Below, in pieces: positions 38,312 through 57,182 of a stretch of DNA of 64,000 bases (within the stretch, counting starts at the first letter, position 1; the number at the start of each line of letters is the position of its first letter). Below the pieces are notes generated by a model that searched no databases, was not told the DNA's origin, and was given only the letters and a program-made list of their open reading frames with translations. Source of the DNA: Methanococcoides burtonii DSM 6242 (lineage in GTDB: Archaea > Halobacteriota > Methanosarcinia > Methanosarcinales > Methanosarcinaceae); assembly GCF_000013725.1 (NCBI RefSeq), contig NC_007955.1, positions 527,579 to 591,578 on the forward strand. The letters are read 5' to 3'. A program made the translations under genes and the position numbers.

Positions 38312-38362
38312 AATCAAAGGCAACAGTTGTATTTTGTTAAAGCTTGGGGTTCGAATATGACC

Positions 38363-38382
38363 CCCCTCATAACAAGTCGGGG
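38363..38382. repeat. casposon target repeat, copy 1
   Basis: CCCCTCATAACAAGTCGGGG. The last GGGG overlaps the first bases of the casposon A inverted repeat, and the first CCCC is chromosomal here. The 12 central bases TCATAACAAGTC are the unambiguous duplication; the true duplication is between 12 and 20 bp. Confidence 0.93.
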
Positions 38383-38409
38383 ATATAGGTAACTTGATTT
38401 TTTTGTACG
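38379..38409 (+). repeat. casposon A left terminal inverted repeat
   Basis: Begins GGGGATATAGGTAACTTG and ends TTTTTTGTACG; matches the complement of 46783-46813 at 27 of 31 positions, differences clustered at positions 15 and 17-19. Confidence 0.92.
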
Positions 38410-38644
38410 GTGTTGTGTATGTTATGTGCATAACTACATGCATAAAAATTAATTAGAAACTCTTTAAAAATTTAGAATAAATATTTATAAAACTATTTTG
38501 ATTAAGGGGGTCTAAATTAATTCATAATGCTTAATTTACAGAACCAAATATTTTTTTGTGTAAGATTCGATATAATAATTACTTATCATAAAAATCCTAA
38601 AATTATAGATATATTTATAATATGTAAATGTATAGCTCTAAAGT

Positions 38645-39349
38645 ATGTATGAGTTGTTAATCGTTATTTTTCTGATTATTATAATGTATGTAATCACCCA
38701 CCTTCATCCTCTTAATGAAAAAGAAATATTAAAGCTAGCAGACAAGAGAAGATCTAGAGCAATAAAAACATATTATAATTATAGTACAAAGGAAAAATCA
38801 GTCGATAAAGGTTTTAAAAAGGGAATGAAATCAACGGGAGCATATTATTTAATCAATGAAGATTTATCTCTATTTCCATCCATTGCGGCTGGTTTACTAA
38901 AATATAAGAAACATGAATGGGCAATTATTGCTTTTGAAAAAAATAAAACCATTCAACTTATGTGGACTAATAAAGGGATAAATAAAAAAACGGTTTCAAT
39001 CTTCTTATCAACCGAACAAATTATAGCAAAATGTAAAGATAATAACTACTCAACTGTCCTTATATTTCATAATCATCCAAACTCTGATCCTCATACCCTC
39101 GATTGCTCTAGACCAAGTCAACAAGATATAAATTCAGCTCAAATTTTCTCAAATGATTTCAATAAATATGGAATAAATCTAATTGAATTCGTATGTGAAA
39201 GAGGATTACCTTATGAATATCATTTCTCTGACTCAGATACTTTTTTACCCACCTCAGAGTTTATCCAAAATATAAATGAAATTAACGGGATGTCAAAAAT
39301 TCAAAATGTATCGCTACATACTGAAAAAATATTTTTATTTAATACATAA
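38645..39349 (+). CDS. JAB/MPN-domain protein with N-terminal membrane anchor (casposon A cargo)
   Basis: 234 residues. One transmembrane segment at residues 2-21, then a JAMM-type metal site IFHNHPNSDP...CSRPSQQDINSA (about residues 140-165), the HxHP-x(n)-S-x2-D pattern of JAB/RadC-like zinc proteins, with a catalytic Glu probably in the earlier HEWAIIAFEKN strand. JAB enzymes act as isopeptidases or peptidases; RadC-like relatives are common in mobile elements. It sits between the inverted repeat and cas1, a slot occupied by a Shedu-like nuclease in casposon B. Stop TAA. Confidence 0.75.
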   Translation: MYELLIVIFLIIIMYVITHLHPLNEKEILKLADKRRSRAIKTYYNYSTKEKSVDKGFKKGMKSTGAYYLINEDLSLFPSIAAGLLKYKKHEWAIIAFEKNKTIQLMWTNKGINKKTVSIFLSTEQIIAKCKDNNYSTVLIFHNHPNSDPHTLDCSRPSQQDINSAQIFSNDFNKYGINLIEFVCERGLPYEYHFSDSDTFLPTSEFIQNINEINGMSKIQNVSLHTEKIFLFNT

Positions 39350-39419
39350 TATGAGTTATATAAAGATGAAATAAATAATACTGCTTACTATTAGAATATT
39401 TTAGAATAGCAAATTAGTA

Positions 39420-40628
39420 TCATTCAACAATACTCCCCCAATTCTCTAACCTCTCTCTTACATGGACATTTAATGTAAACGGCTTCTCACTATTGGCATT
39501 CTGTTTCATATAGTTCAATGTACCCTTTGAGAACCCCATTTTCTTCCACTCGGTATAAGGCATATCAATAATCGTCTTCCTCAACAGATCAGTATCATCC
39601 CTTTCATTGATATAAACAGGCTTAACAAACTCAATCGTTTTCCTCTTCCCAACAAGATGATGACTCAGCTCTCTTGCCTTGAGCAATAGTACAGATCCCC
39701 AAGAGCTATTCTTCTTCCTATACTCGACTTTACCATTCATCACAGAATTAAACTCTTCAGTAACCTTCCTTGCTCCAGTAGGTCTCAATCTCAATGAAAA
39801 ACTCTCAGTCCTGATAAAGTCCTTACTATCCATAATTCCCTTTTCAATCAGGTTCATTACAGTAAGATCAACAATAAACCTGAACGGTTCTTGGAGATCA
39901 TAGGCTAAACTATTCTTACTTGGATTCATCTCATGAAGGAATCCTACATGAGCATCAAGACCAACTGAATTAATGGCTCTCAAACATTCAGATTCAAGCA
40001 AAGCATACCCATAATTCAGCATGACATTAACTTTATCGCCTGAGTTAGATGCTCTGGCATTATTATCAGTCCTTGCCCTGAAATCATATTCTTCAGGAAT
40101 AGCTTTAGCATACTCATTCCAGTACTTCCAAGCAACTCCACCTTCAACACCTAAGATCTCCCTTACAGATTTAGCATTCTCAAGTTTACCCTTATCAACG
40201 GAGATATCATAATTAATCTCAGGATACCTTAGTTTAAGATAATCAAGAACAGCCTCAGATTTGGAGAACTTGGCTTCAATAAACTTCTTAGCAAGCTTTA
40301 CTCTTGTATCCTGATCTTCATAAGCATGGTATTGAGCAAACTTTGTCTTTACATTGGTACTTTCAGAAGGAAGCATTGTTGTTAGAAGCTTACCGTTCCA
40401 ATCTAAAATAGTAATCTGTACATTATGTTTAATCAACCATCTGATAGCTTCGAGGCTTAGAGATCCACTTCTCCCATACACAACAATGCTATCAATATCC
40501 ATCCTCTTAGGAGAGAACACATACTCTTCAGGATCTTCAGTTGTTGAGAATCTGCCATCTTTGATATGGAGTTTTGCACTATCAACACGCATATTGATTC
40601 CATGACCATTTAGCAATAACAATTTCAT
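39420..40628 (-). CDS. cas1: Cas1 casposase (casposon A integrase)
   Basis: 402 residues. N-terminal beta domain (MKLLLLNGHGINMRVD, VVYGRSGSLSLEAIRWL) and the helical catalytic domain with the Cas1 metal triad: Glu in NYGYALLESECLRAI (about residue 213), His in AHVGFLHEMNPSKNSLAYDL (about 232) and Glu in LQEPFRFIVD (about 246). It catalyses casposon integration by the same chemistry as CRISPR spacer insertion (established for casposases of Aciduliprofundum and Methanosarcina). A C-terminal ~45-residue module (DMPYTEWKKMGFSKGTLNYM) is probably HTH-like. Start ATG overlaps the wHTH stop by 1 nt (TAATG), so they are coupled. No cas2 or CRISPR array nearby. Nearly identical to casposon B Cas1. 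Confidence 0.96.
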   Translation of the reverse strand: MKLLLLNGHGINMRVDSAKLHIKDGRFSTTEDPEEYVFSPKRMDIDSIVVYGRSGSLSLEAIRWLIKHNVQITILDWNGKLLTTMLPSESTNVKTKFAQYHAYEDQDTRVKLAKKFIEAKFSKSEAVLDYLKLRYPEINYDISVDKGKLENAKSVREILGVEGGVAWKYWNEYAKAIPEEYDFRARTDNNARASNSGDKVNVMLNYGYALLESECLRAINSVGLDAHVGFLHEMNPSKNSLAYDLQEPFRFIVDLTVMNLIEKGIMDSKDFIRTESFSLRLRPTGARKVTEEFNSVMNGKVEYRKKNSSWGSVLLLKARELSHHLVGKRKTIEFVKPVYINERDDTDLLRKTIIDMPYTEWKKMGFSKGTLNYMKQNANSEKPFTLNVHVRERLENWGSIVE

Positions 40629-41746
40629 TAGAAATCACTCTCCTTCAGGTCTTGTTTGAGCAGTTTACACACATTCTTTGCTTTCCAATTAATTTTATCT
40701 CCGTTCCGAATCTTCCACTGGATCTTATCTAACATCTTTTTTGGAACACCAAGTCTATCAGCTTCTTTCTCTGAAATATTAAGAATCCTCTCTTTCTTTT
40801 CATCATTACTCAGAAACATTTGAGATTTTAATGTATCCATCTCCAGTTCATTATTATCTTTGTTTTTGAAGGGATCGTCTTTCAATCCAAGATCAATAAG
40901 GGCAGTTGCACGAATTTCAGCAATAAATTGAGCTGCTTCTATCTTATTTTCAAGCCTTAACTTTTCTTCAAACTCATACAATTCTTCTCTGTGTTCTTCA
41001 ATTATGTTAGCTGCTGTTCCTAATTGATATTCTTCTTTGATTTCATGAAGGTTATCTAACGTTTCAGCATCTCGTATAGCTCTTTCAACAACAGCAGAAT
41101 CATTATAGTATCCAAGTAAAAAGATGAGATGAGATCTTAGATTTGTATGTGTTCTTAATGGTTCAGGATACTTTTTCAGCAGTGATCTAAGAACATCAAT
41201 TGTTTTAGTTTCATTAGATGGATCTATCTTCTTGTACTCAATATAGTTGTAAACAATCCTTAAAACGTGGTCAAGTAAATTAGTATCATCCGATTTTAAA
41301 ATGGATACAAGCATATCCAATTGTTTAGGATTTAATGCATAATGTTTTTCATAGCTTTCTATTTCTTTTAATGCCATTTTTTGTTTAATTGGATTGTTTG
41401 ATTGGAGCTTGTTAATAGCAACATCTAGATGAGAAGTTATTTTCCCAGTCCTTCTTAGCGTAACGTAAGTAGAACGCTTATCTTCTTCTTTTATTCCATA
41501 TTTTTGGAGATCTTCATATCTAATTACAAGTAGAGTGCCTGCGCCCTGCATATCATAGAGTTTTCTTTGAATATTTTCATGGCTATAGCCTCTGTTTTCT
41601 TGAAAATTCGTTTGTAATTTCTTAATAAGATCTCGTTTTCTTATAAAAGGGGTGCTTTGTAAGATAGAAATCACATTATACTCAAACTCATTAGTATTCT
41701 TATAAGAATTATAGTTATTCTTATCTGTATTTATATTCAAATTCAT
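40628..41746 (-). CDS. winged-helix protein, conserved casposon core (A)
   Basis: I choose the ATG at 41746 (372 residues, MNLNINTDKNNYNSYKN); the longer frame to 41821 would run through the promoter of the divergent gene, and the homologue in casposon C starts at the same Met. The winged helix is about residues 25-95 (PFIRKRDLIKKLQTNFQENR, SHENIQRKLYDMQGAG, YVTLRRTGKI), followed by a HEAT-like helical middle (MALKEIESYEKHYALNPKQL). The last 45 residues (ILNISEKEADRLGVPKKML ... NWKAKNVCKLLK) resemble the C-terminal module of Cas1 and PolB. Likely regulator or end-binding protein. Divergent from RHH over 55 bp with TTAAGTAT iterons. Confidence 0.85.
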   Translation of the reverse strand: MNLNINTDKNNYNSYKNTNEFEYNVISILQSTPFIRKRDLIKKLQTNFQENRGYSHENIQRKLYDMQGAGTLLVIRYEDLQKYGIKEEDKRSTYVTLRRTGKITSHLDVAINKLQSNNPIKQKMALKEIESYEKHYALNPKQLDMLVSILKSDDTNLLDHVLRIVYNYIEYKKIDPSNETKTIDVLRSLLKKYPEPLRTHTNLRSHLIFLLGYYNDSAVVERAIRDAETLDNLHEIKEEYQLGTAANIIEEHREELYEFEEKLRLENKIEAAQFIAEIRATALIDLGLKDDPFKNKDNNELEMDTLKSQMFLSNDEKKERILNISEKEADRLGVPKKMLDKIQWKIRNGDKINWKAKNVCKLLKQDLKESDF

Positions 41747-41801
41747 ACTTAAAGTTATACTTAAATGTGATATAAATCTGTTGTAAGCCAATAGTAATTT
41801 G
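41741..41801. promoter_or_regulatory. divergent control region of casposon A with TTTAAGTAT iterons
   Basis: The interval between the wHTH and RHH starts holds two ATACTTAAA copies (41745-41753 and 41757-41765, i.e. TTTAAGTAT on the minus strand) spaced 12 bp apart, partly overlapping the wHTH start. Casposon C has three copies at the same place. Likely operator for RHH or wHTH autoregulation. Confidence 0.6.
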
Positions 41802-41957
41802 ATGAATATGAAATCAATCAAAGATACACAAAGAATTCTTGCAACTCTCTCTCCTTACCTCAAGGAGAAGCTAGTACAGATGTCAGACAAATTTGGATGC
41901 TATCAGGCAGAAGTTGTCAGGATAGCATTATTGAAGCTTTGGGAGGCTGAGAAATGA
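41802..41957 (+). CDS. ribbon-helix-helix protein, casposon core (A)
   Basis: 51 residues: ILATLSPYLKEKLVQMSDKF then GCYQAEVVRIALLKLWEAEK, a ribbon (short beta strand) followed by two helices as in CopG/Arc repressors. Too short for many gene callers but conserved in all three casposons (45-51 residues) with near-identical C-termini. It probably dimerises and represses the divergent promoters. Its TGA overlaps the next start by 4 bp (ATGA at 41954-41957), so it leads the polB operon. Confidence 0.82.
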   Translation: MNMKSIKDTQRILATLSPYLKEKLVQMSDKFGCYQAEVVRIALLKLWEAEK

Positions 41958-42592
41958 CTCTCAAGCAATTCTCAAAAGATTACAGGAACTATGGAGATTG
42001 GCTTAAAGCTCAACCAAGAACTTCAGAATATGCCAAGAGAGTCATCAGGTTTCATGAAAGGTTTCCAACTCTCAGCTTGAATGACTTGAGAAATACAAGG
42101 CTCAAGGATCATAACCTGAGTACAACTTCATGGAAACTCTTGAATTCACAACAAAAGAGAGATAGAACACTATCCCTTGAAATTCTTAGAAATGTGAGAA
42201 AAGGAGTTCCATTTTCAAAAGCTATTGAGAAAACAGGAGCTAACAAGAAGAACGTAATTAACAATCTTGGAAAATACCTGTACAAATCAAAAGGGAAATG
42301 GAGAGTAACAGCTTCAGATAGAATTGAATCAGAGATGGCATTCAATGATAGAGATAAGGGGCTGATCTCGATTGTTACAACAAGATCTAAAGATAGGAGC
42401 TTAATTGCTGAATATTTCAATGCTGTTAATCAAGCTTTGAAATCTGGTGATTCTAAGTTTTTGAAGAAATTTGAAAATGCAAAAGTCATTGATGCTGAAG
42501 GCAATGAGCATTATTTTGTAACCGATTTGGATAGACTGTATGAGATTCAGGATGCACAAGAAGAGCCTGAATTCTTTGAATTATACGTTTAA
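41954..42592 (+). CDS. conserved casposon protein with HTH-like segment (A)
   Basis: 212 residues with homologues of the same length in casposons B and C. N-terminal part: DYRNYGDWLKAQPRTSEYAK and a helix-rich region (RFHERFPTLSLNDLRNTRL). The middle LEILRNVRKGVPFSKAIEKT and GANKKNVINNLGKYLYK resembles a helix-turn-helix; the C-terminal half is an alpha/beta domain (GLISIVTTRSKDRSLIAEYF). No named family recognised; probably binds DNA. Second gene of the RHH-X-HNH-polB operon; the HNH start follows after 16 bp. Confidence 0.75.
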   Translation: MTLKQFSKDYRNYGDWLKAQPRTSEYAKRVIRFHERFPTLSLNDLRNTRLKDHNLSTTSWKLLNSQQKRDRTLSLEILRNVRKGVPFSKAIEKTGANKKNVINNLGKYLYKSKGKWRVTASDRIESEMAFNDRDKGLISIVTTRSKDRSLIAEYFNAVNQALKSGDSKFLKKFENAKVIDAEGNEHYFVTDLDRLYEIQDAQEEPEFFELYV

Positions 42593-42608
42593 TGGGAGAG
42601 TGGATACT

Positions 42609-42941
42609 ATGGATAAAGAATCTTACAGGAAGAATATTAGCAAGCATAAGAAAGGGAAGAAACCACCTATTGCATGTTCAGTATGTGGGGAAGATAATTC
42701 AGAAGTAATTGAAATGCATCATGTTGATGGAAGAAATACTTCAGATTGGGTAAAACCACTATGCAAGAATTGTCATGCTAAGATAACAGCAGAACAGAAT
42801 AAGATCAGTCCAAAAAAGAGATCTAAAACAACATCCTCAGAAAATCTAACAGCTTTCAACATCATTTCTATTGGTGCTTTGCTAAAACTACTTGGAGACC
42901 GTTTAATCAATATTGGAATGGAGATGACTGTAAATGTCTAA
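42609..42941 (+). CDS. HNH endonuclease, casposon core (A)
   Basis: 110 residues from the ATG at 42609; GGGAG at 42594-42598 supports this start over the GTG three codons earlier. Compact HNH fold: basic N-terminus (KESYRKNISKHKKGKKPP), CSVCGEDN zinc half-site, the EMHHVDGRN catalytic HH...N, and CKNCHAKITAEQN as second zinc half-site. The C-terminal 45 residues form helices. HNH nucleases are common in euryarchaeal casposons; role in the life cycle is unknown. Its stop overlaps the polB start by 8 bp. Confidence 0.88.
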   Translation: MDKESYRKNISKHKKGKKPPIACSVCGEDNSEVIEMHHVDGRNTSDWVKPLCKNCHAKITAEQNKISPKKRSKTTSSENLTAFNIISIGALLKLLGDRLINIGMEMTVNV

Positions 42942-45606
42942 GATCGCTGTTAGAGGCTATACTCAGAAGATCAAAGAATCTTCAGGTAATCCTTTTTACA
43001 TTCCTAAAGATGTACCACTAAGACATGATAGAGTACTGGTCTTTGACACCGAAACAACAATAGATCAATATCAGAATTTCAAAATAGGGTATTTTAAGAT
43101 ATACCAAGATGTGTATATTCAGCATGAAGGTATGTTTCACGATACTTCAATGCTTACTGATAATGAAAATAAGGTATGTGTGGTATATACTTCAAAGTAT
43201 GATATACCACTTTATACCCTAAATGAATTTATTGATGAGGTATTTTATCCTGAAGTGTTTGGTTTGAAAACTCTTTGTGTTGGTTTTAATCTTCCTTTTG
43301 ACATAAGCAGGATCTCAAAAAGAGTTGGAGATTCAAGAGGAAGAAACAAAGGAGGATTTACATTTACTCTTTCAGACAACAGATTCAATCCTCCCATTAT
43401 TGTTAAGAAATTAGGTGATGCTCATACATTCAAACTTACTTCAACCAAGATAAACAAAGGAAAAGATCATTTTTCAGGTTATTTCCTTGATGCTCAAAAG
43501 TTAGCTGAAGTGTTGCTCCAATCAAAAAGGATCTCTTTAGATAAAGCAGGTCAAAAGCTCGATACCAATGTTAAAAAAATGAAAGGAATTGAACATGGAA
43601 AAGTGACTGAGAGATATATTGATTATCTTATTGATGATGTTGAAACAACTTATCAAGTCTATGAGAAACTTATTGATGAACTTGAACTTTATCAGATAAG
43701 CATCCCACCAACCAAGATATTTAGTTCAGCTTCAATTGGAAAGTATGCTCTTGGGCAATTGGGGATTCAATCATTTTTAGATCTTAACCCAGAGTTTTCT
43801 TCAGAAACCATTGGGACAAACATGACTTCTTACTATGGAGGAAGATGTGAATGTAAGATTGGGAAAGAACCTACAAATGTCACAGTCCTTGATTTTACAA
43901 GCATGTATCCAACTATTACTATGGAAATGGATCTCTGGAAATACATGATAGCTGAATCTCTTGAAATGAATGTTGTTACAGATGAAATTAAGGGGATGTT
44001 AAACACTCTTACCCTTAATTATCTTCAAGATAAGGATAACTGGAAAGAGTTTGTAGTAATGGTAAAGTTACAGCTTGACAATGATATTTTACCTGTAAGG
44101 ATGGATTATAAGGGCAATAATACTGGGTATAATGTAGGTGTTAATTACCTTACTTCTGATAATGAGCTATGGTATGCTTTACCTGATGTTATCGCTTCAG
44201 TTCTTTTAACTGGCAAAGTTCCTGAGATCATTGAAGCTATAAGGTATGTTCCAAAAGGTGTTCAGAAAGGTTTGAATCAATCTCAGATACTTGGAATTGA
44301 TGTAGATCCAACTAAAGATAATCTTGTTCAGGTACTTGTTGAGGAAAGGCAAAATCTCAAAATTCAAATGAAGAGTATTGATAAAGATAAGTCTGAATAT
44401 CAACAATTGGAAAGTAGAGCACAAGCTATCAAGATTCTTGTTAATGCTATGAGTTATGGGATATTCATTGAGTTAAATCCTGAAGATAATAAAACTGACA
44501 TTCAAGTTTATGGCTTGGATGATTTTAATACCTCAGAGAACAGATTTGAGAAAGCAGGTAATTATTTTCATCCTTTACTAGCTGTTATGATTACAGCAGG
44601 ATCAAAGTTGTTCTTGGCAATGGCTGAGGCTAAAGTAAAAGAGCTTGGTTCAGTTCATGCATACATGGATACTGATTCTATCTTTGTTCCTCCTGAACAT
44701 GCTCAGGAGATTATAGATTATTTCCAACCTCTAAATCCTTACATCCTTGATATTGATCTGTTGAAAGCTGAGAAAGAGGATGTGTGGTTTTATGGCATAT
44801 CTTCAAAAAGATATGCTCTTTACACTTATGAGAATGGGAATATTAAGTTCATGGAAGGGGAGAGATCTTTTAAATTACATGGACTTGGACATTTAACAAA
44901 TCCGTTTCCAAAGGCTGTTGAAGATTGGCAAGCTGAGATATGGGAAGATATTCTCAAGTTGCATTATGGTATAATCTCTGAATTGGATATTGAAAAGAAG
45001 TATTCAAACATGTATGCTATTTCACGACTGACTGTTTCAACTGCAAATGTGTTGCATAGGTTTGATGTTATCAATAAAGGGAAAGAATGGATATATCAGA
45101 TCAAACCTTTCAATTTCTATCATGTTGGGTTTCAGGTTGCTGAAGAAGATGGTAAGGCAGTAAAGCCTTTATCTCCTTTCTCAAATGATCCTCAGAATAT
45201 TGTTTATGATCCATTTATTGATTATGCAACAGGAGAGATTAAAGAAGGATCTCATTATTTCAAACCGTTAAGCAGGACAATTATACAATATGTTGATCAT
45301 CTTGAGCATAAGTTTGATGGAAAGATTGGAGTTCTTGAAAGAAAGCATGTTCATGCTGATTCTGTTATTTATATTGGAAAAGAAGCTAACAATATTGATG
45401 AACAAGAATTGGATGTAAAGAAGGCTCAAGAATTTATTGATGAAAAGTTAGTTTATGATCTTATTCTGAAGCTTACTCCTGAGAAAGCTAGGGATATTGG
45501 AATTAAGCATAGAAGTGCTTTAGCTTATTTGAAGAAAAAAGCAAAGGAGGGGAAGTTGAATTTTAAGTCAAAAAATGTGAAGAGAATAGCAGCTGCTTCA
45601 AATTAA
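42934..45606 (+). CDS. polB: family B DNA polymerase (casposon A)
   Basis: 890 residues. Exonuclease motif I VFDTETT (about residue 36); polymerase motif A LDFTSMYPTI (about 318), motif B KILVNAMSYG (about 499) and motif C YMDTDS (about 576), all with catalytic Asp residues present. This is the casposon-encoded PolB, generally assigned to the protein-primed group, giving these elements their 'self-synthesising' name. The last ~50 residues (LKLTPEKARDIGIKHRSALA ... NFKSKNVKRI) match the small C-terminal module of the wHTH and Cas1 proteins. Overlaps HNH by 8 bp, suggesting translational coupling. Stop TAA. Confidence 0.95.
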   Translation: MSKIAVRGYTQKIKESSGNPFYIPKDVPLRHDRVLVFDTETTIDQYQNFKIGYFKIYQDVYIQHEGMFHDTSMLTDNENKVCVVYTSKYDIPLYTLNEFIDEVFYPEVFGLKTLCVGFNLPFDISRISKRVGDSRGRNKGGFTFTLSDNRFNPPIIVKKLGDAHTFKLTSTKINKGKDHFSGYFLDAQKLAEVLLQSKRISLDKAGQKLDTNVKKMKGIEHGKVTERYIDYLIDDVETTYQVYEKLIDELELYQISIPPTKIFSSASIGKYALGQLGIQSFLDLNPEFSSETIGTNMTSYYGGRCECKIGKEPTNVTVLDFTSMYPTITMEMDLWKYMIAESLEMNVVTDEIKGMLNTLTLNYLQDKDNWKEFVVMVKLQLDNDILPVRMDYKGNNTGYNVGVNYLTSDNELWYALPDVIASVLLTGKVPEIIEAIRYVPKGVQKGLNQSQILGIDVDPTKDNLVQVLVEERQNLKIQMKSIDKDKSEYQQLESRAQAIKILVNAMSYGIFIELNPEDNKTDIQVYGLDDFNTSENRFEKAGNYFHPLLAVMITAGSKLFLAMAEAKVKELGSVHAYMDTDSIFVPPEHAQEIIDYFQPLNPYILDIDLLKAEKEDVWFYGISSKRYALYTYENGNIKFMEGERSFKLHGLGHLTNPFPKAVEDWQAEIWEDILKLHYGIISELDIEKKYSNMYAISRLTVSTANVLHRFDVINKGKEWIYQIKPFNFYHVGFQVAEEDGKAVKPLSPFSNDPQNIVYDPFIDYATGEIKEGSHYFKPLSRTIIQYVDHLEHKFDGKIGVLERKHVHADSVIYIGKEANNIDEQELDVKKAQEFIDEKLVYDLILKLTPEKARDIGIKHRSALAYLKKKAKEGKLNFKSKNVKRIAAASN

Positions 45607-45631
45607 TAAAAAGTGAAGGAAGGTATTAAAA

Positions 45632-46600
45632 TCAACTTTTGTTATCTTCTTTTTTCATATAAGGAGAATGTTCGGGGTTAAAATATTTTCTATATATTGT
45701 AATGTAGTCAGAGTGGATGGAGTGAAAAGGCTTTTGGTATCGTTTTTCAATCTCGGAGGTAATTCCAATTTCTTCTTTAAATACATTATAATTATCCTTT
45801 GAATACTTAAAAAGAAAAAATAGCAAATTAGGAGAGATATCAATTCCTTCAGTTTCGAAATGAGCTAGTAAATCTTTAATTTCATCTTCTTCAATGAAAT
45901 CCTTGGACTTCTTTGTTTTTTCAAATTCTATTAGAGCTTCTGATGGTGTTTCATTAACCTGCTTTAATGCAACTGAAACTCTGTCAGTGATGAATATTTT
46001 TTTACCAACAACATTCAAAAATTCATTCTCAATAAATAATTTATGATTTACATATGTATTATCTTCGGTTACAAAAATGACATCATCATTCAGATTTTCA
46101 AGCAATGTTTCCCATATTATCTGATCGCCAATTGTTCCTTTCTTTTTATCAATGGGAGGATTACCCATAAGCATCCTATCTTTTGCCTTCTGTATTATTG
46201 TTTCTGTTCTTTTAATTTTCTTGACATCTTTACTGTTATAGATGTCAAGAAAACCATTTAATATAGGATCGTCATCAGAGTGAGTTTGTAAATCTTTTAG
46301 CTTTTGAATTAAAAGCTTATTCTTCTCATCGAAATCATCTTTTATAGTCTTTAGATTATCATATTCTTCCATATGTCGAATCAATGCTGTAGTATGAATT
46401 TCAACTTTATTTTTGTTGCTAGAGTTAATTTGTTTTTGTAGTACTGAATCTCTATTTCTCAAAAACTCATCATATACTTGCTCTGGAATAATTAATCGTT
46501 TTTTTAATTTTGTTATATCGTCAAAAATCTGAGATACTTTGTTATTATTTGATTCATACAATCCTAAAAATATATTTGTATCAATGAATATATTAACCAT
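45632..46600 (-). CDS. PIN-domain ribonuclease-like protein (casposon A cargo)
   Basis: 322 residues. The PIN fold is visible: NIFIDTNIFLGLYES at the start (first Asp), a conserved acidic pair later in TIGDQIIWETLL (about residue 160) and DVIFVTEDNTY (about 175), resembling the DUF4935/PIN_8 group found in defence islands. The C-terminal ~120 residues are helical and unassigned. Metal-dependent RNA cleavage is inferred from the family. It converges on polB with a 25-bp gap, filling the polB-side cargo slot that holds other genes in B and C. Stop TGA. Confidence 0.8.
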   Translation of the reverse strand: MVNIFIDTNIFLGLYESNNNKVSQIFDDITKLKKRLIIPEQVYDEFLRNRDSVLQKQINSSNKNKVEIHTTALIRHMEEYDNLKTIKDDFDEKNKLLIQKLKDLQTHSDDDPILNGFLDIYNSKDVKKIKRTETIIQKAKDRMLMGNPPIDKKKGTIGDQIIWETLLENLNDDVIFVTEDNTYVNHKLFIENEFLNVVGKKIFITDRVSVALKQVNETPSEALIEFEKTKKSKDFIEEDEIKDLLAHFETEGIDISPNLLFFLFKYSKDNYNVFKEEIGITSEIEKRYQKPFHSIHSDYITIYRKYFNPEHSPYMKKEDNKS

Positions 46601-46782
46601 AGATATTATCCACCATTATAATGAAATATAATCATAGTCAATCAGGCACTATATAAAATATTCGATTTATCATTAATAGATATTTATACTTAATATACGG
46701 AACTTATTATCAAAAATCCAATAAGATTTTTAATTGTTCATTAATTGGAATAATACTAGCTAAAAATAACCTTAAGATATAG

Positions 46783-46813
46783 CGTACAAAAAAACAGACT
46801 TACCTATATCCCC
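46783..46813 (-). repeat. casposon A right terminal inverted repeat
   Basis: Plus strand CGTACAAAAAAACAGACTTA then CCTATATCCCC; complement of the left repeat with four mismatches. Confidence 0.92.
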
Positions 46814-46829
46814 TCATAACAAGTCGGGG
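46810..46829. repeat. casposon target repeat, copy 2 (A/B junction)
   Basis: CCCCTCATAACAAGTCGGGG, identical to copies 1 and 3. Its CCCC ends casposon A and its GGGG begins casposon B, so only the 12 central bases separate the two elements. Confidence 0.95.
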
Positions 46830-46856
46830 TAATAGGTAACGTGTAAAAACGGAACT
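46826..46856 (+). repeat. casposon B left terminal inverted repeat
   Basis: Begins GGGGTAATAGGTAACGTG and ends AAAACGGAACT; differs from the complement of 57841-57871 at a single base. Confidence 0.93.
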
Positions 46857-46897
46857 TTTGAAATTTAGAGTATCAGTCCTACATATAATAAATCATA

Positions 46898-48038
46898 GAG
46901 AATTCCGATAAACCCCTCAAACAGAAGCAATATTTATAACCTATTACAATAATTTTGTATTATGTCCTTAACAAACTTTGCTTTTAAAGAAGAGTACAAA
47001 CGTCTTGAAAATCTCGGTGACAAGCTCTCTGAAATTGAATCTCTCATCGATTGGAAACCATTTCGTCCAATTATAGCAGAGATGTATATCAATAAAACAG
47101 AGTTCGGTGGCAGACCAAACGTTGATGAAATCGTCATGCTCAAAATGTTAGTATTGCAACAATGGCATGGCCTATCTGACCCTGAACTTGAAAGACAAGC
47201 TACTGATAGAATTTCCTTTAGGAAATTCTTGGGCTTTCCTGCAAAAATTCCAGATCATACTACTGTTTGGGCATTTAGAGAACGAATTTCCCAGGCAGGA
47301 AAAGAAGATGAAATCTGGAATGAAATGCAAAGACAACTTAATAAGAAAGGTCTGAAGATCAAGCAAGGTATGATTCAGGATGCAACATTTATACATGCTG
47401 ATCCAGGACATGCAAATCTTGATACTCCTCGTGGAAATGAAGCAAAGACCAGAAGATGTAAGGACGGTACATGGACAAAAAAGGCATCTAAGTCACATTT
47501 TGGATATAAACTACATACCATTGAAGATACCGAATATGATCTGATAAGGAGATATAGGACAACTACTGCCTCAGTTCATGATAGTCAGGTGGATCTTTCT
47601 GAAGAAGGCGAAGTTGTTTACAGAGATAGAGGTTACTTTGGTGCAATTTCAAAAGGATATGATGCAACTATGCAAAGGGGAGTACGAGGGCACCCTATTG
47701 GTATTAGGGATAAGATGAGAAACAAAAGAATAAGCAGGAAAAGAGCAAAGGGAGAAAGACCTTATGCTGTTATCAAAAATGTGTTTACGTCAGGATTTGT
47801 AAGAGTAACAACGTTGGCAAGAGTAAATGTCAAAATGGCGATTACAGCATTCAGCTATAATCTCTATCAATTGAGGACAATAAGAAGAAAATCATTAGGA
47901 TGAATAGCGGTAGCTATTCAAAAAAGTTGGAAAGTATATAAATAGATACTAGCAAACTGCTGGAAATAGAGAGAAAAGCTCAAAATTTTAGCTGGAAATA
48001 TTTGCTTTGAAAAAAATCAGCAGTTAATCGCAATTCTC
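46898..48038 (+). mobile_element. IS5-type insertion sequence, copy 1, inside casposon B
   Basis: 1141 bp. Ends GAGAATTCCGAT and the complement of ATCGCAATTCTC (imperfect inverted repeats). Flanked by the 4-bp direct repeat CATA (46894-46897 and 48039-48042). The same sequence recurs at 48273-49413. Confidence 0.93.
46962..47903 (+). CDS. IS5-type transposase (copy 1)
   Basis: 313 residues. N-terminal domain typical of IS5 (FGGRPNVDEIVMLKMLVLQQ, HGLSDPELERQATDRISFRK), then DDE core: first Asp in GMIQDATFIHADPGH, second in VVYRDRGYFGA, Glu in KGERPYAVIKNVF region as in IS5-group enzymes. It cuts and pastes the element using 4-bp targets. The encoded protein is identical to that of copy 2. Stop TGA. 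Confidence 0.92.
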   Translation: MSLTNFAFKEEYKRLENLGDKLSEIESLIDWKPFRPIIAEMYINKTEFGGRPNVDEIVMLKMLVLQQWHGLSDPELERQATDRISFRKFLGFPAKIPDHTTVWAFRERISQAGKEDEIWNEMQRQLNKKGLKIKQGMIQDATFIHADPGHANLDTPRGNEAKTRRCKDGTWTKKASKSHFGYKLHTIEDTEYDLIRRYRTTTASVHDSQVDLSEEGEVVYRDRGYFGAISKGYDATMQRGVRGHPIGIRDKMRNKRISRKRAKGERPYAVIKNVFTSGFVRVTTLARVNVKMAITAFSYNLYQLRTIRRKSLG

Positions 48039-48272
48039 CATACTTATAATTTGAATCAGACCCACTACAAAAAAATAATTCATCACATAATGTTTTAGAT
48101 TTCAACATAAAATATTATTTTAAGTATTCATAGGCTATATTTCAAAACAAATTCGTAAAGTACTTAAGCCAATAATTAATACTTGTGATTATATGGCTTG
48201 GGAGTTTATTTTTTGAATTTAAATATTTTTACAACTAGAGAAATAGCAACAATTATTTGGGTTATAATTATA

Positions 48273-49413
48273 GAGAATTCCGATAAACCCCTCAAACAGA
48301 AGCAATATTTATAACCTATTACAATAATTTTGTATTATGTCCTTAACAAACTTTGCTTTTAAAGAAGAGTACAAACGTCTTGAAAATCTCGGTGACAAGC
48401 TCTCTGAAATTGAATCTCTCATCGATTGGAAACCATTTCGTCCAATTATAGCAGAGATGTATATCAATAAAACAGAGTTCGGTGGCAGACCAAACGTTGA
48501 TGAAATCGTCATGCTCAAAATGTTAGTATTGCAACAATGGCATGGCCTATCTGACCCTGAACTTGAAAGACAAGCTACTGATAGAATTTCCTTTAGGAAA
48601 TTCTTGGGCTTTCCTGCAAAAATTCCAGATCATACTACTGTTTGGGCATTTAGAGAACGAATTTCCCAGGCAGGAAAAGAAGATGAAATCTGGAATGAAA
48701 TGCAAAGACAACTTAATAAGAAAGGTCTGAAGATCAAGCAAGGTATGATTCAGGATGCAACATTTATACATGCTGATCCAGGACATGCAAATCTTGATAC
48801 TCCTCGTGGAAATGAAGCAAAGACCAGAAGATGTAAGGACGGTACATGGACAAAAAAGGCATCTAAGTCACATTTTGGATATAAACTACATACCATTGAA
48901 GATACCGAATATGATCTGATAAGGAGATATAGGACAACTACTGCCTCAGTTCATGATAGTCAGGTGGATCTTTCTGAAGAAGGCGAAGTTGTTTACAGAG
49001 ATAGAGGTTACTTTGGTGCAATTTCAAAAGGATATGATGCAACTATGCAAAGGGGAGTACGAGGGCACCCTATTGGTATTAGGGATAAGATGAGAAACAA
49101 AAGAATAAGCAGGAAAAGAGCAAAGGGAGAAAGACCTTATGCTGTTATCAAAAATGTGTTTACGTCAGGATTTGTAAGAGTAACAACGTTGGCAAGAGTA
49201 AATGTCAAAATGGCGATTACAGCATTCAGCTATAATCTCTATCAATTGAGGACAATAAGAAGAAAATCATTAGGATGAATAGCGGTAGCTATTCAAAAAA
49301 GTTGGAAAGTATATAAATAGATACTAGCAAACTGCTGGAAATAGAGAGAAAAGCTCAAAATTTTAGCTGGAAATATTTGCTTTGAAAAAAATCAGCAGTT
49401 AATCGCAATTCTC
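48273..49413 (+). mobile_element. IS5-type insertion sequence, copy 2, inside casposon B
   Basis: 1141 bp, same orientation as copy 1, flanked by TATA (48269-48272 and 49414-49417). The different target duplications show two separate insertion events, 226 bp apart (the 48043-48268 spacer is AT-rich and has no gene). Confidence 0.93.
48337..49278 (+). CDS. IS5-type transposase (copy 2)
   Basis: Same 313-residue protein as copy 1, with no difference seen in the translation, so at least one jump was recent. Two direct copies could mobilise or delete the intervening segment by recombination. Confidence 0.92.
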   Translation: MSLTNFAFKEEYKRLENLGDKLSEIESLIDWKPFRPIIAEMYINKTEFGGRPNVDEIVMLKMLVLQQWHGLSDPELERQATDRISFRKFLGFPAKIPDHTTVWAFRERISQAGKEDEIWNEMQRQLNKKGLKIKQGMIQDATFIHADPGHANLDTPRGNEAKTRRCKDGTWTKKASKSHFGYKLHTIEDTEYDLIRRYRTTTASVHDSQVDLSEEGEVVYRDRGYFGAISKGYDATMQRGVRGHPIGIRDKMRNKRISRKRAKGERPYAVIKNVFTSGFVRVTTLARVNVKMAITAFSYNLYQLRTIRRKSLG

Positions 49414-49480
49414 TATATTATTATTTTTATTATGCAAGTCCGAATATCAGTCTTCATTATTCAATATTGTTAAGGCTGCT

Positions 49481-50239
49481 TTGAATAGACACATCATTTT
49501 CTATTTTTTAACTTACTTATGTTATTTGTCGTTGATAACTTATTCTTTATATTATTTTGAATTGTGGAATTTGTCTTACTTTAAAAGTACTTCAATATGG
49601 TTCATATTTTCAGGTCTCCCAATTGGTTTTGTTGTTGTTGAAAACAAAACGGAATCTCATTTTTGGAAAAATCTGATATTGAATAATTTAAAGTTAGTAG
49701 TGTTCGTAACATTCATTATTAGTTCGGTCACATTTCCGTTAATATTAGAAGTTATTCTACTTCCAATTATAGCACTCATTGTGATATGCGACACGATTGC
49801 AACTACTAAAAATATAGGATTTGTTGCAAAAATTACTGGTATCGTTTTGGGACTTATTGGACTTAGTTTGTTCACGTATTCTTTGTATAGAGTATTAAGT
49901 GATATTCACTCAATTGGAAACATTAGCACATTAAAAGATTTCATGATGCCTGTGTTTTTCTCAACAATATCAATTCCTTACATGTATGCATTAAAACTGT
50001 ATTCTGAATATCAGTTATTATTTCTCCGTTTGAAATTCGGACAAAAAAGAAGTAGGAAGCTTAATTTTTTAATAAAAATACATCTTATTTTGTTCTGTAA
50101 TATGCAACTCAAAAAAATTCAAATTGCTAAGAATATGGGGAATTATAATATAATGTTAATATCCTCAAAGGAGGACATTACTGATATGATTGAAAGCTAT
50201 AAAAATGTATTACTTTTTGGAAAAAATAGACGCCATTAA
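49481..50239 (+). CDS. multi-pass membrane protein (casposon B cargo)
   Basis: 252 residues from a TTG start; no ATG in frame nearby, and the IS copy 2 end lies only 68 bp upstream, so the native 5' region may be altered. About five transmembrane helices (residues 4-24, 32-50, 70-90, 91-106, 113-135, 155-172), then a basic cytoplasmic tail (FLRLKFGQKRSRKL). It resembles a loose group of membrane proteins of mobile elements and defence loci whose function is unknown. A frame overlapping its 3' end (50190-50438) is not called with confidence. It converges with polB. Confidence 0.6.
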   Translation: MNRHIIFYFLTYLCYLSLITYSLYYFELWNLSYFKSTSIWFIFSGLPIGFVVVENKTESHFWKNLILNNLKLVVFVTFIISSVTFPLILEVILLPIIALIVICDTIATTKNIGFVAKITGIVLGLIGLSLFTYSLYRVLSDIHSIGNISTLKDFMMPVFFSTISIPYMYALKLYSEYQLLFLRLKFGQKRSRKLNFLIKIHLILFCNMQLKKIQIAKNMGNYNIMLISSKEDITDMIESYKNVLLFGKNRRH

Positions 50240-50564
50240 AATAGAACCAATCCATAACTCTACACATTTATTTAGCAGTGATGTTTTTTTTGGAAATTAT
50301 ATGAACAATGGTAAATATCAAATTTATATGAATATGTCTGAACAAGATTTTGGATATTATGAACTGAGATGCAAAGATAGTAATAGTAATACACCAGAAT
50401 CTGTTAGCAGTTTCATCTATACTAATATTTCTCATTAAACTTTGGGTGGAAATCTAGTATTTTACAAACAAACATTTGTAACTCTAAAGCACCCCACACA
50501 TGAACCTTTGATATTATGTAAGACTTTTTGATTATTCGATTGAAATTTGCATTATCACTCTCCT

Positions 50565-53234
50565 TTAAGCTTTTTTAACTAACTTCCTCACCGCCGGAGT
50601 ATTCAAATTCAAATCTTCATTTTCCCTTATCCTTTTTTTAATCCCATGAAATCTGCTTCTAGAAACTCCCAATGCTTCAGCCTGTTTTTGTGACATATTG
50701 AGGATATTTCCCATAATTTCTTGCTTGTTAATGAACTCTTGAGAACGCTTCACATCAAGAGCTTGCTCATCAATACTGTTAGCCTCTTTGCCGATATAAA
50801 TAACAGAATCAGCCTGAACATGCTTTCTCTCAAGTACTCCAATCTCTCCATCAAACTTAGATTCTGGATGATTAGCATACTCGATTATTGTCCTACTCAG
50901 TTGCTTGAAATAATGAGATCCTTGCTTAACCTCTCCTGTTTCATAATCAATGAAAGGCTCATAAACAATACTTTGAGGATCATTTGAAAAGGGAGCTAGT
51001 GGCTTTACTGCTTTCCCGTTTTCCTCAATGGTCTGAAACCCTACATGATAGAAGTTAAAAGGTTTGATCTGCTCAGCCCATGACTTGCCTTTATTGAATC
51101 CCTTGAACCTTCTCAGGACATTTGCAGTTGAAACAGTAAGCCTTGAGATTGCATAGAGGTTTGAATACTTCTCTTCAATATCTATCTCTGTAAGAATCCC
51201 ATAATGCAACTGAAGGAGATCTTCCCATATCTCAGCCTGCCAATCTCCAATAGTTTTTGGAAATGGATTTGTTAAATGTCCAAGTCCATGCAATTTGAAA
51301 GATCGCTCTCCTTCCATAAAGTTGATTTCTTCATTTTCATAAGTGTAAAGAGCATATCTTTTTGATGAAATGCCATAAGACCACATATCTTCTTTCTCAG
51401 GCTTCAATAGATCAATATCAAGGCTGTATGGGTTCAGTGGTTGGAAATAGTCTATAATCTCCTGTGCATGTTCAGGAGGAACAAAGATTGAATCTGTATC
51501 CATATACGCATGAACAGAATCAAGTTCTTTGGTTTTTGCTTCTGCCATAGCCAAAAATAGTTTAGATCCGGCTGTGATCATAACAGCAAGCAAAGGATGA
51601 TAATAATTCCCTGCCTTCTCATATCTGTTTTCTGAAGTATTAAAATCATCCAAGCCAAAAACCTGAATATCGCTTTTCTTATTTTCTGGATTAAGCTCAA
51701 TGAATATCCCATAGCTCATAGCATTAACCAGAATTTTGATAGCCTGTGCTCTGCTACTCAATTGTTGATATTCTGGATCATCTTTGCTAATATCCTTCAT
51801 ATGAAGCTTGATATTCTGCCTTTCTTCAACAAGTACCTGAACAAGATTATCTTTTGTAGGATCAACATCAATTCCAAGTATCTGTGATTTCTTTAAACCC
51901 TTCTGAATCCCTTTTGGAATAAACTTGATTGCTTCAATGATTATGGGAACTTTGCCAGTAAGAATAACTGAATTTATAACATCAGGTAAAGCATACCATA
52001 ATTCAGAATCGGAACTAAGATAATTGATGCCTACATTATAGCCCGTTCCAGATCCTTTGTAATCCATCCTGACAGGCACTATATCCTCATCAGGCTGTAT
52101 TTTAACCATAACAACAAAGTCTTTCCAGTTATCCTTATTCTGAAGATATGCAAGATTTACTTTTGAGAGCATCTCCTTAATTTCATCAGTAATATCTTTC
52201 ATCTCAAGTGATTCAGCAATCATAAACTTCCAGAGATCCATCTCCATAGTAATGGTTGGATACATGCTAGTAAAATCAAGAGTGGTTACTTTAACAGGCT
52301 CTTTCCTAATCTTACATTCACATCTTCCTCCATAGTAAGAAGTCATGATATTACCAAGCATCTCATGAGAAAACTCAGGATTAAGACTTAAAAATGATTC
52401 AATGCCCAATTGCTTTAAAGAATGTTTTCCAATAGATGCAGAACTGAATATCTTAGTTGGTGGGATGTCTATCTGATAATGATCTAATTCTTCAATTAGC
52501 TTCTCATAGACCTGATAAGTGGTTTCAACATCCTGAATTAGATAATCAATGTATTTCTTGGTTACTTTCCCATGCTCAATATTTTTCATCTTCTTGGTTT
52601 TGGTATTGAGTTTTTGCCCTGCTTTATCTAAAGAGATCTTTTTTGATTGGAGCAGTACCTCAGCTAACTTCTGAGCATCAAGGAAATAGCCTGTAAAATG
52701 ATCATTTCCTTTGTTTATCTTGGTTGAAGTAAACTTGAAATTATAAGCATCTCCCATCTTCTTAACGATAATAGGAGGATTGAACTTATTTTCTGAAAGT
52801 GTAAAAGTAAAGCCTCCCTTATTCTGCTTTCTTGAATCTCCTACTCTTTTAGAGATCCTGCTTATATCAAAGGGAAGATTGAAGCCAACACAAAGAGTTT
52901 TCAAACCAAAGACTTCAGGATAAAATACCTCATCAATGAATTCATTTAGGGTATAAAGAGGTATATCATACTTTGAAGTATATACTTCACATACCTTTTT
53001 TTCATTATCGTTAAGCATAGCAGCATCATAAAACATACCTTTATGCTGAATATACCCATCCTGGCATATCTTGAAATATCCTATCTTGACATTCTGATAT
53101 TGATCGGTTGTAGTTTCAGTATCAAATACCAGAGTTCTATCATGCCTTAATGGATCTTCTCTTGGTTTGAAAAAGGAATTACCTGAAGATTCCTTGATCT
53201 TCTGAGTATATCCCCTTAAAGCAATGTTAGACAT
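50565..53234 (-). CDS. polB: family B DNA polymerase (casposon B)
   Basis: 889 residues, intact. Motifs as in A: VFDTETT near the start, LDFTSMYPTI, KILVNAMSYG and YMDTDS. More diverged from A and C than those are from one another (for example GNSFFKPREDP where A has GNPFYIPKDVP). Its C-terminal module reads ILNMSQKQAEALGVSRSRFH and then LNTPAVRKLVKKA, again like the Cas1/wHTH module of A. Start overlaps the HNH end by 8 bp. Stop TAA. Confidence 0.95.
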   Translation of the reverse strand: MSNIALRGYTQKIKESSGNSFFKPREDPLRHDRTLVFDTETTTDQYQNVKIGYFKICQDGYIQHKGMFYDAAMLNDNEKKVCEVYTSKYDIPLYTLNEFIDEVFYPEVFGLKTLCVGFNLPFDISRISKRVGDSRKQNKGGFTFTLSENKFNPPIIVKKMGDAYNFKFTSTKINKGNDHFTGYFLDAQKLAEVLLQSKKISLDKAGQKLNTKTKKMKNIEHGKVTKKYIDYLIQDVETTYQVYEKLIEELDHYQIDIPPTKIFSSASIGKHSLKQLGIESFLSLNPEFSHEMLGNIMTSYYGGRCECKIRKEPVKVTTLDFTSMYPTITMEMDLWKFMIAESLEMKDITDEIKEMLSKVNLAYLQNKDNWKDFVVMVKIQPDEDIVPVRMDYKGSGTGYNVGINYLSSDSELWYALPDVINSVILTGKVPIIIEAIKFIPKGIQKGLKKSQILGIDVDPTKDNLVQVLVEERQNIKLHMKDISKDDPEYQQLSSRAQAIKILVNAMSYGIFIELNPENKKSDIQVFGLDDFNTSENRYEKAGNYYHPLLAVMITAGSKLFLAMAEAKTKELDSVHAYMDTDSIFVPPEHAQEIIDYFQPLNPYSLDIDLLKPEKEDMWSYGISSKRYALYTYENEEINFMEGERSFKLHGLGHLTNPFPKTIGDWQAEIWEDLLQLHYGILTEIDIEEKYSNLYAISRLTVSTANVLRRFKGFNKGKSWAEQIKPFNFYHVGFQTIEENGKAVKPLAPFSNDPQSIVYEPFIDYETGEVKQGSHYFKQLSRTIIEYANHPESKFDGEIGVLERKHVQADSVIYIGKEANSIDEQALDVKRSQEFINKQEIMGNILNMSQKQAEALGVSRSRFHGIKKRIRENEDLNLNTPAVRKLVKKA

Positions 53235-53559
53235 TTACAGTCATCTCCATTCCAAGATTAATCAAACAATCTCCAAGCTCTCTTAGTAAAGTACCAATTG
53301 AAATGATCTTGAAAGCTCTCTTATTCTGTAAGGAGGCTTCACTTGATCTTGCTTTAGGACTAAGTTTGTTCTGTTCTGCTGTTATTTTAGAATGACAATT
53401 CTTACAAAGAGGTTTGATCCAATCTGAATTATTCCTTCCTTCTACGTGATGCATCTCAATGACATTCTTGTTATCTTCTCCACATACAGCACATGCAATC
53501 GGTGGTTTCTTTCCCTTCTTTTGTTTCTTTAGATAAATCGCATAAGATTCTTTTTCCAT
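53227..53559 (-). CDS. HNH endonuclease, casposon core (B)
   Basis: 110 residues from ATG at 53559, preceded by AAGGAG. The same architecture as in A: CAVCGEDN, EMHHVEGRN and CKNCHSKITAEQNKL, then two helices. All zinc Cys and catalytic His residues are present. Third gene of the RHH-X-HNH-polB operon. Confidence 0.88.
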   Translation of the reverse strand: MEKESYAIYLKKQKKGKKPPIACAVCGEDNKNVIEMHHVEGRNNSDWIKPLCKNCHSKITAEQNKLSPKARSSEASLQNKRAFKIISIGTLLRELGDCLINLGMEMTVNV

Positions 53560-53571
53560 AGTATCCACTCC

Positions 53572-54213
53572 TTAACTTTGATATATCTGTAAAAATTCAG
53601 GCTCTTCCTGTGCTTCTGCAATATCATACAGTTGATCAAGATCTGTTACTAGCGAATGTTCTTCGCCGATAGCATCAATGATTTTAACGCCGTCAAATCT
53701 CTTTAACGAAGTATCATCGCCGTCTTTTAACCCCTTTTGAACGGCAGCAAAGTATTCGCCGATTAGCCTTCTATCTCTTGAATTCGTCGTTATTATCGTT
53801 ATCTGACCTGCGTTTCTATCGTAGATTAACATCTCCGTTTCGATATTATCGGTGGCGTTTATTTTCCATTTCCCGTTTGATTTATGGAGAGCTTTTCCAA
53901 GGTGCTTAACAGCAAAGTCTTTGTTTACCCCTACTTTCTCAACTGCTTTTGTTAAGGAGTCACCTTTTCTCATGTATCTCAAAACCTTGAGGGATAGAGT
54001 TCTATCCCTCTTTTGACTGGATGTCAAGGTTTGCCATGCATGATCCCTTAGTGTATGATCTTTCAATCTTAGATCTCTAAGATCTTTCAGGTTCATATTT
54101 GGAAATCTCTCATGTTTCCTGATGAGATCCTTTGCATATCGGGTATCCCTAGGTTGAGCTTTTAGCCATTCTCCATAGGTTCTGAATTTAGCTGAGAATA
54201 TTTTACGGCTCAT
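53572..54213 (-). CDS. conserved casposon protein with HTH-like segment (B)
   Basis: 213 residues, homologous along its length to the proteins of A and C (FRTYGEWLKAQPRDTRYAKD, LRYMRKGDSLTKAVEKVGV, GQITIITTNSRDRRLIGEYF) but noticeably diverged. Its base composition is GC-richer in the C-terminal half than neighbours (many CG dinucleotides at 53650-53870), which may reflect recombination with a different source. Start overlaps the RHH stop by 4 bp. Confidence 0.75.
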   Translation of the reverse strand: MSRKIFSAKFRTYGEWLKAQPRDTRYAKDLIRKHERFPNMNLKDLRDLRLKDHTLRDHAWQTLTSSQKRDRTLSLKVLRYMRKGDSLTKAVEKVGVNKDFAVKHLGKALHKSNGKWKINATDNIETEMLIYDRNAGQITIITTNSRDRRLIGEYFAAVQKGLKDGDDTSLKRFDGVKIIDAIGEEHSLVTDLDQLYDIAEAQEEPEFLQIYQS

Positions 54214-54347
54214 TTCTCAGCCTCCCAGAGTTTCAACAAGCCTATTCTGACAACTTCTGCCTGAGAGCATCCAAATTTATCTGACATCAGTACGATTTTC
54301 TCCTTGAGATAAGGGGAGATTGTTGTTAGTATTTTTTCACTAGTCAT
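54210..54347 (-). CDS. ribbon-helix-helix protein, casposon core (B)
   Basis: 45 residues: TTISPYLKEKIVLMSDKFGC and SQAEVVRIGLLKLWEAEK, orthologous to the A and C proteins. First gene of the operon, overlapping the next by ATGA. Likely repressor of the divergent control region. Confidence 0.82.
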   Translation of the reverse strand: MTSEKILTTISPYLKEKIVLMSDKFGCSQAEVVRIGLLKLWEAEK

Positions 54348-54466
54348 GGTACATCACCAATACCCTATAGGGCAGCATTAGTGATATTAACAATGATATT
54401 AACTTTGATACTAAAAATAACCATTAACAATATAAAGAATAACGAATATGATATTATATTAGATAT
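54348..54466. promoter_or_regulatory. divergent control region of casposon B with GATATTAAC iterons
   Basis: Two GATATTAAC copies (54383-54391 and 54395-54403) 12 bp apart, plus related GATACT/TGATATTAT sequence, lie between RHH and wHTH; a CCCTATAGGG palindrome sits at 54363-54372. The 12-bp period is the same as for the TTTAAGTAT iterons of A and C, but the sequence differs, matching the divergence of the B wHTH protein. Confidence 0.55.
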
Positions 54467-56577: not shown

Positions 56578-56678
56578 CAAATGATTTGCATTAAACATTT
56601 TTTATTTTGCTAAAATAACCTAAACTCGGTACACTATATATTTATGGTTGGAGGTTCGGAAAATGTTTATCTTGTATT

Positions 56679-57182
56679 ATGGGGAATGTTCCTATATTAT
56701 ATGGAGAAGGTAATCACATGAGTTATTCAAAAATTGAAAAGATATCTCATTTAATAGGGGAATTGGAGAGGGCATTTAAAGAATTCTCTGATGAAGACTT
56801 TGATGATATAAAACTTTTTGAAGAGATGGATTCTCTTTTTGTATCAATTCTTGACCCTAGTAATGTCAGCACGCATCCAAATATAGCTGAATTTTTACTC
56901 ACTAATAAGCACCGTTCACAATTTTTAGCACACATCAGATATGTAATTACACACAATTACAGCTTTAAAGGATCTAAAAATGGACACGAAGCATTTGTTT
57001 CTCCAAATCACATACAGTGGTATGATGATGGTGTAATGTTTTTAGAAGGAAAAGAACCGTTTTTAGGTTTTATTGGGTTGTACAGAAATAAAGAAGCAAG
57101 ATATGCAATTGCTGCTCGTGATGCTAAAGATGGAGAAGAACTTTCAAAGCCATTTGCTTATCAATATCATCACCATCGATGA
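56679..57182 (+). CDS. N-terminal part of a Shedu-like cargo gene or separate protein (casposon B)
   Basis: 167 residues (possible internal start at 56718, MSYSKIEKISHLIGELERAF). Helical N-terminus, then a beta-rich part (FVSPNHIQWYDDGVMFLEGK, FLGFIGLYRNKEARYAIAAR). The following gene (57258) encodes a DUF4263 nuclease that in full-length family members is preceded by a regulatory N-terminal region, so the two may be one interrupted gene. It ends HHHR-TGA; multiple stops separate it from 57258. Confidence 0.5.
   Translation: MGNVPILYGEGNHMSYSKIEKISHLIGELERAFKEFSDEDFDDIKLFEEMDSLFVSILDPSNVSTHPNIAEFLLTNKHRSQFLAHIRYVITHNYSFKGSKNGHEAFVSPNHIQWYDDGVMFLEGKEPFLGFIGLYRNKEARYAIAARDAKDGEELSKPFAYQYHHHR

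Follow-up and report, generated by a model that had tools for sequence, protein, structure and literature searches.

Family 2 casposons and the tandem array of Methanococcoides burtonii

Casposons are mobile elements, relatives of the ancestor of CRISPR. What recognizes casposon ends and what role the recurrent HTH domains play are questions that have been posed since 2014 (PMC4150552). The closest described systems are the family 2 casposons of Krupovic et al. 2014 (PMC4046053), which have the same gene set as the locus analyzed here: Cas1, PolB, an HNH protein, and two HTH proteins. That paper already states that family 2 PolB C-termini bear an HTH similar to that of the casposase; a preliminary description of the present locus had taken this relationship to be undescribed and was mistaken on this point. 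The elements MetBur-C1 to MetBur-C3 reported there are also adjacent, the third being decayed; their TIRs and TSDs were described there as unfound.

The window, that is, the whole analyzed stretch of 64,000 nucleotides from M. burtonii DSM 6242 (NC_007955.1), contains a tandem array of casposons A, B, and C, whose TIRs and TSDs are given in Table 1. Casposon A has the characters of family 2, namely a stand-alone Cas1 with a C-terminal HTH, a PolB whose own C-terminal HTH is a relative of the Cas1 one, an HNH protein and a pair of HTH proteins of which one has HEAT repeats (identified by gene order, the Pfam support being weak), and TIRs with a 14-bp TSD.

Table 1. Features of the casposon array, with positions in the window
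Feature	Position	Strand	Basis or remark
tRNA T-loop-like target motif GTTCGAAT, -17 to -10 of the TSD	38349-38356	+	Read from sequence; proposed Cas1-tail site
14-bp TSD CTCATAACAAGTCG, leader side of casposon A	38366-38379	+	
Casposon A	38380-46812		Whole element
Casposon A left TIR GGGATATAGGTAACTTGATTTTTTTGTACGG	38380-38410	+	Inner motif TTGTACG, class I
Cas1 (casposase) A	39420-40628	-	Pfam Cas_Cas1 E 1.7e-67
Cas1 A C-terminal HTH tail	39423-39638	-	Profile matches and predicted structure
HEAT/wHTH protein A, 397 aa	40628-41821	-	Weak HEAT_2 match
HEAT A C-terminal extension	40631-40867	-	Related to PolB linker and tail; this element only
HTH2 A (second conserved HTH protein)	41954-42592	+	HTH assignment from Krupovic 2014
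HNH protein A	42540-42941	+	Pfam HNH E 0.0045, under curated cut-off
PolB A	42934-45606	+	Pfam DNA_pol_B
PolB A C-terminal HTH tail	45388-45603	+	Recognition helix RSALAYLKKKAKE, class I
Casposon A right TIR GGGATATAGGTAAGTCTGTTTTTTTGTACGC	46782-46812	-	
14-bp TSD between casposons A and B	46813-46826	+	
Casposon B	46827-57870		Whole element
Casposon B TIR, PolB side, GGGTAATAGGTAACGTGTAAAAACGGAACT	46827-46857	+	Class V
PolB B	50565-53234	-	
PolB B tail SRSRFHGIKKRIRENEDLNLNT	50568-50783	-	Class V
HEAT B	54467-55381	+	Without tail
Cas1 B	55381-56577	+	Near-constant tail present
Casposon B TIR, Cas1 side, GGGTAATAGGTAACGTGAAAAAACGGAACT	57840-57870	-	
14-bp TSD between casposons B and C	57871-57884	+	
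Casposon C TIR, PolB side, GGGATATAGGTAAGTCGAAAAAACACTACGG	57885-57915	+	Class VII; C starts at 57885
PolB C tail HRSDLIRLKKNVVERKLNFKT	59296-59511	-	Class VII

The same TSD, CTCATAACAAGTCG, is common to casposons A, B, and C. Being adjacent, with the last one decayed, the three elements fit MetBur-C1 to MetBur-C3 of Krupovic et al. 2014 (PMC4046053), and we infer that they correspond to them. In the array (38349-57915), the leader motif is followed by A, B, and C, and the decayed element is C; this order fits a mode of insertion in which each newcomer enters at the TSD nearest the leader, in the manner of new CRISPR spacers. Other genomes also have tandem flanks (28 of 67). The ends of casposon C are hybrid, with CACTACG on the PolB side, CCGAACT on the Cas1 side (beyond the end of the window, locus L047), and one TSD, an arrangement that a deletion spanning two tandem elements may have produced.

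Casposon B contains, between its PolB-side TIR and its polB gene, two identical transposase-like ORFs of 313 aa (46962-47903 and 48337-49278). A lone class II TIR end, GGGATATATACAACGTGAAAAAAGTGTACGC, at 13682-13712 of the window is apparently a casposon remnant. Isolated polB 3'-end pieces are numerous and scattered (L063, L072, L098, L194-L249, and others), often lying beside a TIR end, and some of them keep an open tail. Insertion at tRNA 3' ends is a trait of family 2 casposons; here no tRNA was called at 38341-38365, though the leader is T-arm-like there, and an Rfam search gave no match across 37-64 kb of the window.

Homology of the C-terminal tails

All four tails quoted in the preliminary description (Cas1, the wHTH/HEAT protein, PolB A, and PolB B, the last lying outside the range given there) are present. 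An HMM of 43 PolB tails, run against 2,407 ORFs, matched each of the 56 Cas1 tails (E 8e-8 to 6e-3) as well as the HEAT protein of casposon A, HEAT-A (E 1e-9); besides these and the PolBs, the best ORF reached only E 0.41. HHalign aligned the PolB and Cas1 tail profiles over 50 columns with 95% probability (E 3e-8), and the best PDB match of the PolB-tail profile among 177,635 sequences was the M. mazei casposase (6opm, residues 361-411, E 5e-4). In AlphaFold models, the PolB tail (helices 19-28, 31-36, 42-54, and 62-71; pLDDT 83.5) and the Cas1 tail (helices 17-25, 28-33, 38-49, and 58-71; pLDDT 81.0) share a four-helix layout. Foldseek and VIA-align searches with both tail models gave weak matches alone (E > 1, best Z 2.9 and 3.8), the tail matches no Pfam family, and the viral contigs searched yielded one weak PolB relative. 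Judged by the profile matches and predicted folds, the Cas1, PolB, and HEAT-A tails are homologous HTH modules.

Two PolBs (L085:8800-11721 and L094:9881-11200) carry two different tails in tandem, and no TIR of these two was matched by the search pattern. A Methanoculleus PolB (L150:1202-3877) has a Cas1-type tail, scoring 41.7 bits with the Cas1-tail HMM. The Cas1 of L087 lacks an HTH tail, whereas the PolB of the same element has one.

The module had also been attributed to the wHTH protein, which proved correct for HEAT-A of this element but not as a family trait: the tail was found in one of about 44 full-length HEAT proteins, and the other 43 or so stop before it. The approximately 72 extra residues of HEAT-A are collinear with the PolB linker and tail (44% identity to the L059 PolB, E 1.7e-11). 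HEAT-A ends in SDF-stop-ATG, and its relatives end in DF-stop-ATG ahead of cas1. The simplest account of these alignments would be that a PolB 3' end was captured once and put in just before the HEAT stop codon. The PolB class closest to the HEAT-A tail differs from the class of its own element's TIR, although the class call is ambiguous (class V from the turn and helix, class II from the whole tail); neither class V nor class II motifs were found within casposon A.

Co-variation of the PolB tail with the inner TIR

The TIRs of many elements can be aligned without gaps. They have an outer end of the form GGG(AT/TA/TT)ATA, an A/T run at about 18-23, and a variable motif at positions 24-31, in which AC at 28-29 is nearly fixed. 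This motif pairs with the PolB tail: HRSALAYLKKK is found with TTTGTACG, YRSTLKKLKDR with GTGTACG, HRSTLKRMKDR with CGCAACG, YRGTLKRIQDK with GATACT, HRSDLIRLKK with CACTACG, RSRFQGIKQR and PKTTLWDMQKR with C(C/G)GAACT, and DRKTF or DRGTF with T(G/A)C(A/C)AC(T/C). In the window, motifs of classes I, V, and VII are confined to the ends of the matching casposon. The pairing breaks down in casposon C, where the left end (CCGAACT) disagrees with its own tail and right end (CACTACG), and in the remnant L064 (+144), where the tail disagrees with the TIR motif. The TIR search was motif-guided, and the motif classes were named after inspection of the data; tail classes do not enter the distance and nearest-neighbour tests. 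A Thermoplasmatota element (L155:6448-6510) has a TIR with the same layout (GGGATATAGACAAGACGAAAAAACGTGCCGC), about 57 bases past polB. A match in L131 was dismissed as due to chance.

For the Mantel tests, the inner TIR was defined as the inner 14 bp (positions about 18-31) and the outer TIR as positions 1-13. The inner TIR correlates with the PolB tail at r 0.67 for right ends (n = 30) and 0.57 for left ends (n = 22), with p = 0.001, such p-values being optimistic because the sequences are related; given the PolB core, the values are 0.68 and 0.59. Its correlations (right/left) with the PolB core (0.06/0.00), HEAT (0.00/0.06), the Cas1 core (0.05/0.12), and the Cas1 tail (0.20/0.23) are low, and a weak right-end correlation with the Cas1 tail persists given the PolB tail (0.16, p 0.016). 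The outer TIR shows the opposite, correlating with the PolB core (0.60/0.56) and not with the tail given the core (0.03/-0.05). The recognition helix is the best-correlating tail segment (0.64/0.55), and its column 27 leads the mutual-information ranking of tail columns. Changes of motif class number 7 on the PolB-tail tree (the minimum being 6), against 13 on the PolB-core tree and 14 on the Cas1-tail tree.

The nearest tail predicts the motif class correctly for 27 of 30 right ends and 19 of 22 left ends. With neighbours restricted to those with cores less than 75% identical, the tail is right in 20/30 and 17/22 cases and the core in 8/30 and 5/22. In a test on unseen tails, 54 from newly retrieved loci were each assigned the motif of the closest training tail. 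A downstream TIR-like end was present for 34 of them, and the exact 7-mer was found in 16 of the 34 and a match within one of the seven bases in 21, some of these loci sharing genomes with the training set; 10,000 shuffles gave a mean of 5.9 and a maximum of 13. L243 and L218 are among the mismatches, the end in L218 lying 4 kb off. A number of the misses are questionable TIR calls or shifts by one base (L206, L225), and in L191 the nearest hit is spurious and the end at 3842 has the expected TGCCACT; these re-readings were made after the test and were not counted.

This parallel change of the PolB tail and the inner ends suggests that the tail reads the ends of its own element, and recognition of some kind between PolB and its own TIR is highly probable. 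The same association could arise by linkage alone if the polB 3' end and the TIRs were co-inherited by recombination, through tandem arrays or circular intermediates, without recognition. The distance from the end of polB to the right TIR is about 0.7-4 kb, and tandem arrays, hybrid ends such as those of casposon C, and the many polB 3'-end remnants show that recombination occurs. However, in 23 of 24 pairs that share the 7-mer and have PolB cores less than 75% identical, blastn found no match between the polB stop and the right TIR; the left TIR, beyond cas1 and several kb away from the polB 3' end, still agrees with the tail; and it is the recognition helix that correlates best. Linkage alone is thus an unlikely explanation. 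A tail serving chiefly for protein contact (PolB-Cas1 or PolB-PolB), with the TIR covarying via a third factor, would agree with the statement that the isolated casposase HTH did not bind DNA (data not shown; PMC6977970), but HEAT, HTH2, HNH, and Cas1 are far poorer predictors of the motif than the PolB tail, and we regard this possibility as quite improbable.

The Cas1 tail, the target site, and comparison with known systems

Unlike the PolB tails, which track the inner TIR, the Cas1 tails are near-constant across all motif classes. In L059 and L060, for instance, they are 97% identical, and the inner motifs differ (GTGTACG vs. CGCAACG). This bears on the model of the preliminary description, in which a shared module takes integrase, polymerase, and regulator to one terminal sequence. 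The homology of the three tails speaks for it and stands, and end recognition does seem to be involved; a common sequence for all three does not agree with near-constant Cas1 tails beside inner TIRs of differing class, nor with the single HEAT protein that has the module, which is closest to classes other than that of its own element. That model therefore appears very improbable.

The flanks point to another site for Cas1. Among the 39 distinct non-tandem flanks examined at the CGCA side of the TSD, 30 have GTTCRA exactly at -17, as do 16 of the 24 without a tRNA call, some of which are still tRNA-like. The extended motif, GTTCRAAT at -17, matches leader sequence known to be needed by casposases: the A. 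boonei enzyme needs TCAAATC at -15 to -9 (PMC6614799), and in M. mazei, published mutation of bp 12-17 abolished integration, as did deletion of the casposase HTH (PMC6977970). Gel shifts with the A. boonei casposase failed, and the casposase requires just five terminal nucleotides of the TIR, the rest being left unexplained (PMC6614799). The L150 PolB, with its Cas1-type tail, has an inner TIR, TTTTGAACT, from a relaxed search, which contains the complement of GTTCAAA. Two results speak against a T-loop reader: the isolated casposase HTH did not bind DNA, as mentioned above, and the nearest-tail rule gives another motif for Cas1. The PolB tail nearest to that of Cas1 is of class I (GTACG) and not a GAAC reader, so the T-loop assignment rests on the leader data and the single L150 case. 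On these grounds, we lean towards the near-constant Cas1 tail reading the target site, the tRNA T-loop GTTCRAAT.

Taken together, family 2 casposons probably employ a single HTH family to read different DNA sites, PolB for the element's own TIRs and Cas1 for the T-loop target. The PolB tail would recognize the inner TIR, at about 18-31, behind the constant outer GGG..ATA; if so, the polymerase and the ends would therefore evolve as a matched pair. Such recognition would couple replication, or the preparation of the ends, to the DNA of the element itself, the replication role being one that we infer because PolB is a polymerase, and it would insulate related elements with a common target, as in the window. 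The Cas1 tail would recognize GTTCRAAT in the T-loop, which lies 17-10 bp upstream of the TSD, and would thereby position the integration. It is somewhat favoured, with less confidence, that these are self-synthesising transposons with a swappable, fast-changing PolB end reader and a near-fixed Cas1 T-loop reader, by which co-resident elements are kept apart.

If this is true, the long TIR would find its explanation in a polymerase that reads the ends of its own element, and such reading would be a mechanism for telling self from non-self among related transposons. The relatives of CRISPR Cas1 would gain a defined reader of the target, and it would need explaining why Cas1-Cas2 lacks one. The table of tail-motif pairs gives direct predictions of binding. 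No report of the link between PolB tail and TIR was found in the open-access collection searched, which misses most subscription papers.

As for the described systems, the accessible part of PMC4046053 states neither this link nor one between the Cas1 tail and the T-loop. The TIR (31 nt) and TSD (14 nt) of L060 are identical to those reported for M. mazei MetMaz-C1, which is experimentally mobile (PMC6977970, PMC10359463); the accessible parts of these papers do not address the roles of the inner TIR and the PolB tail. In the A. boonei target study (PMC6614799), the needed TCAAATC sits where GTTCRAAT sits here; the part of the protein that reads it was not identified, and the authors suggest that the long TIR serves other processes. 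According to the cited papers, Tn7 likewise separates target recognition from end recognition through TnsD and TnsABC; however, those proteins are unrelated, whereas in casposons a single HTH family would supply both readers.
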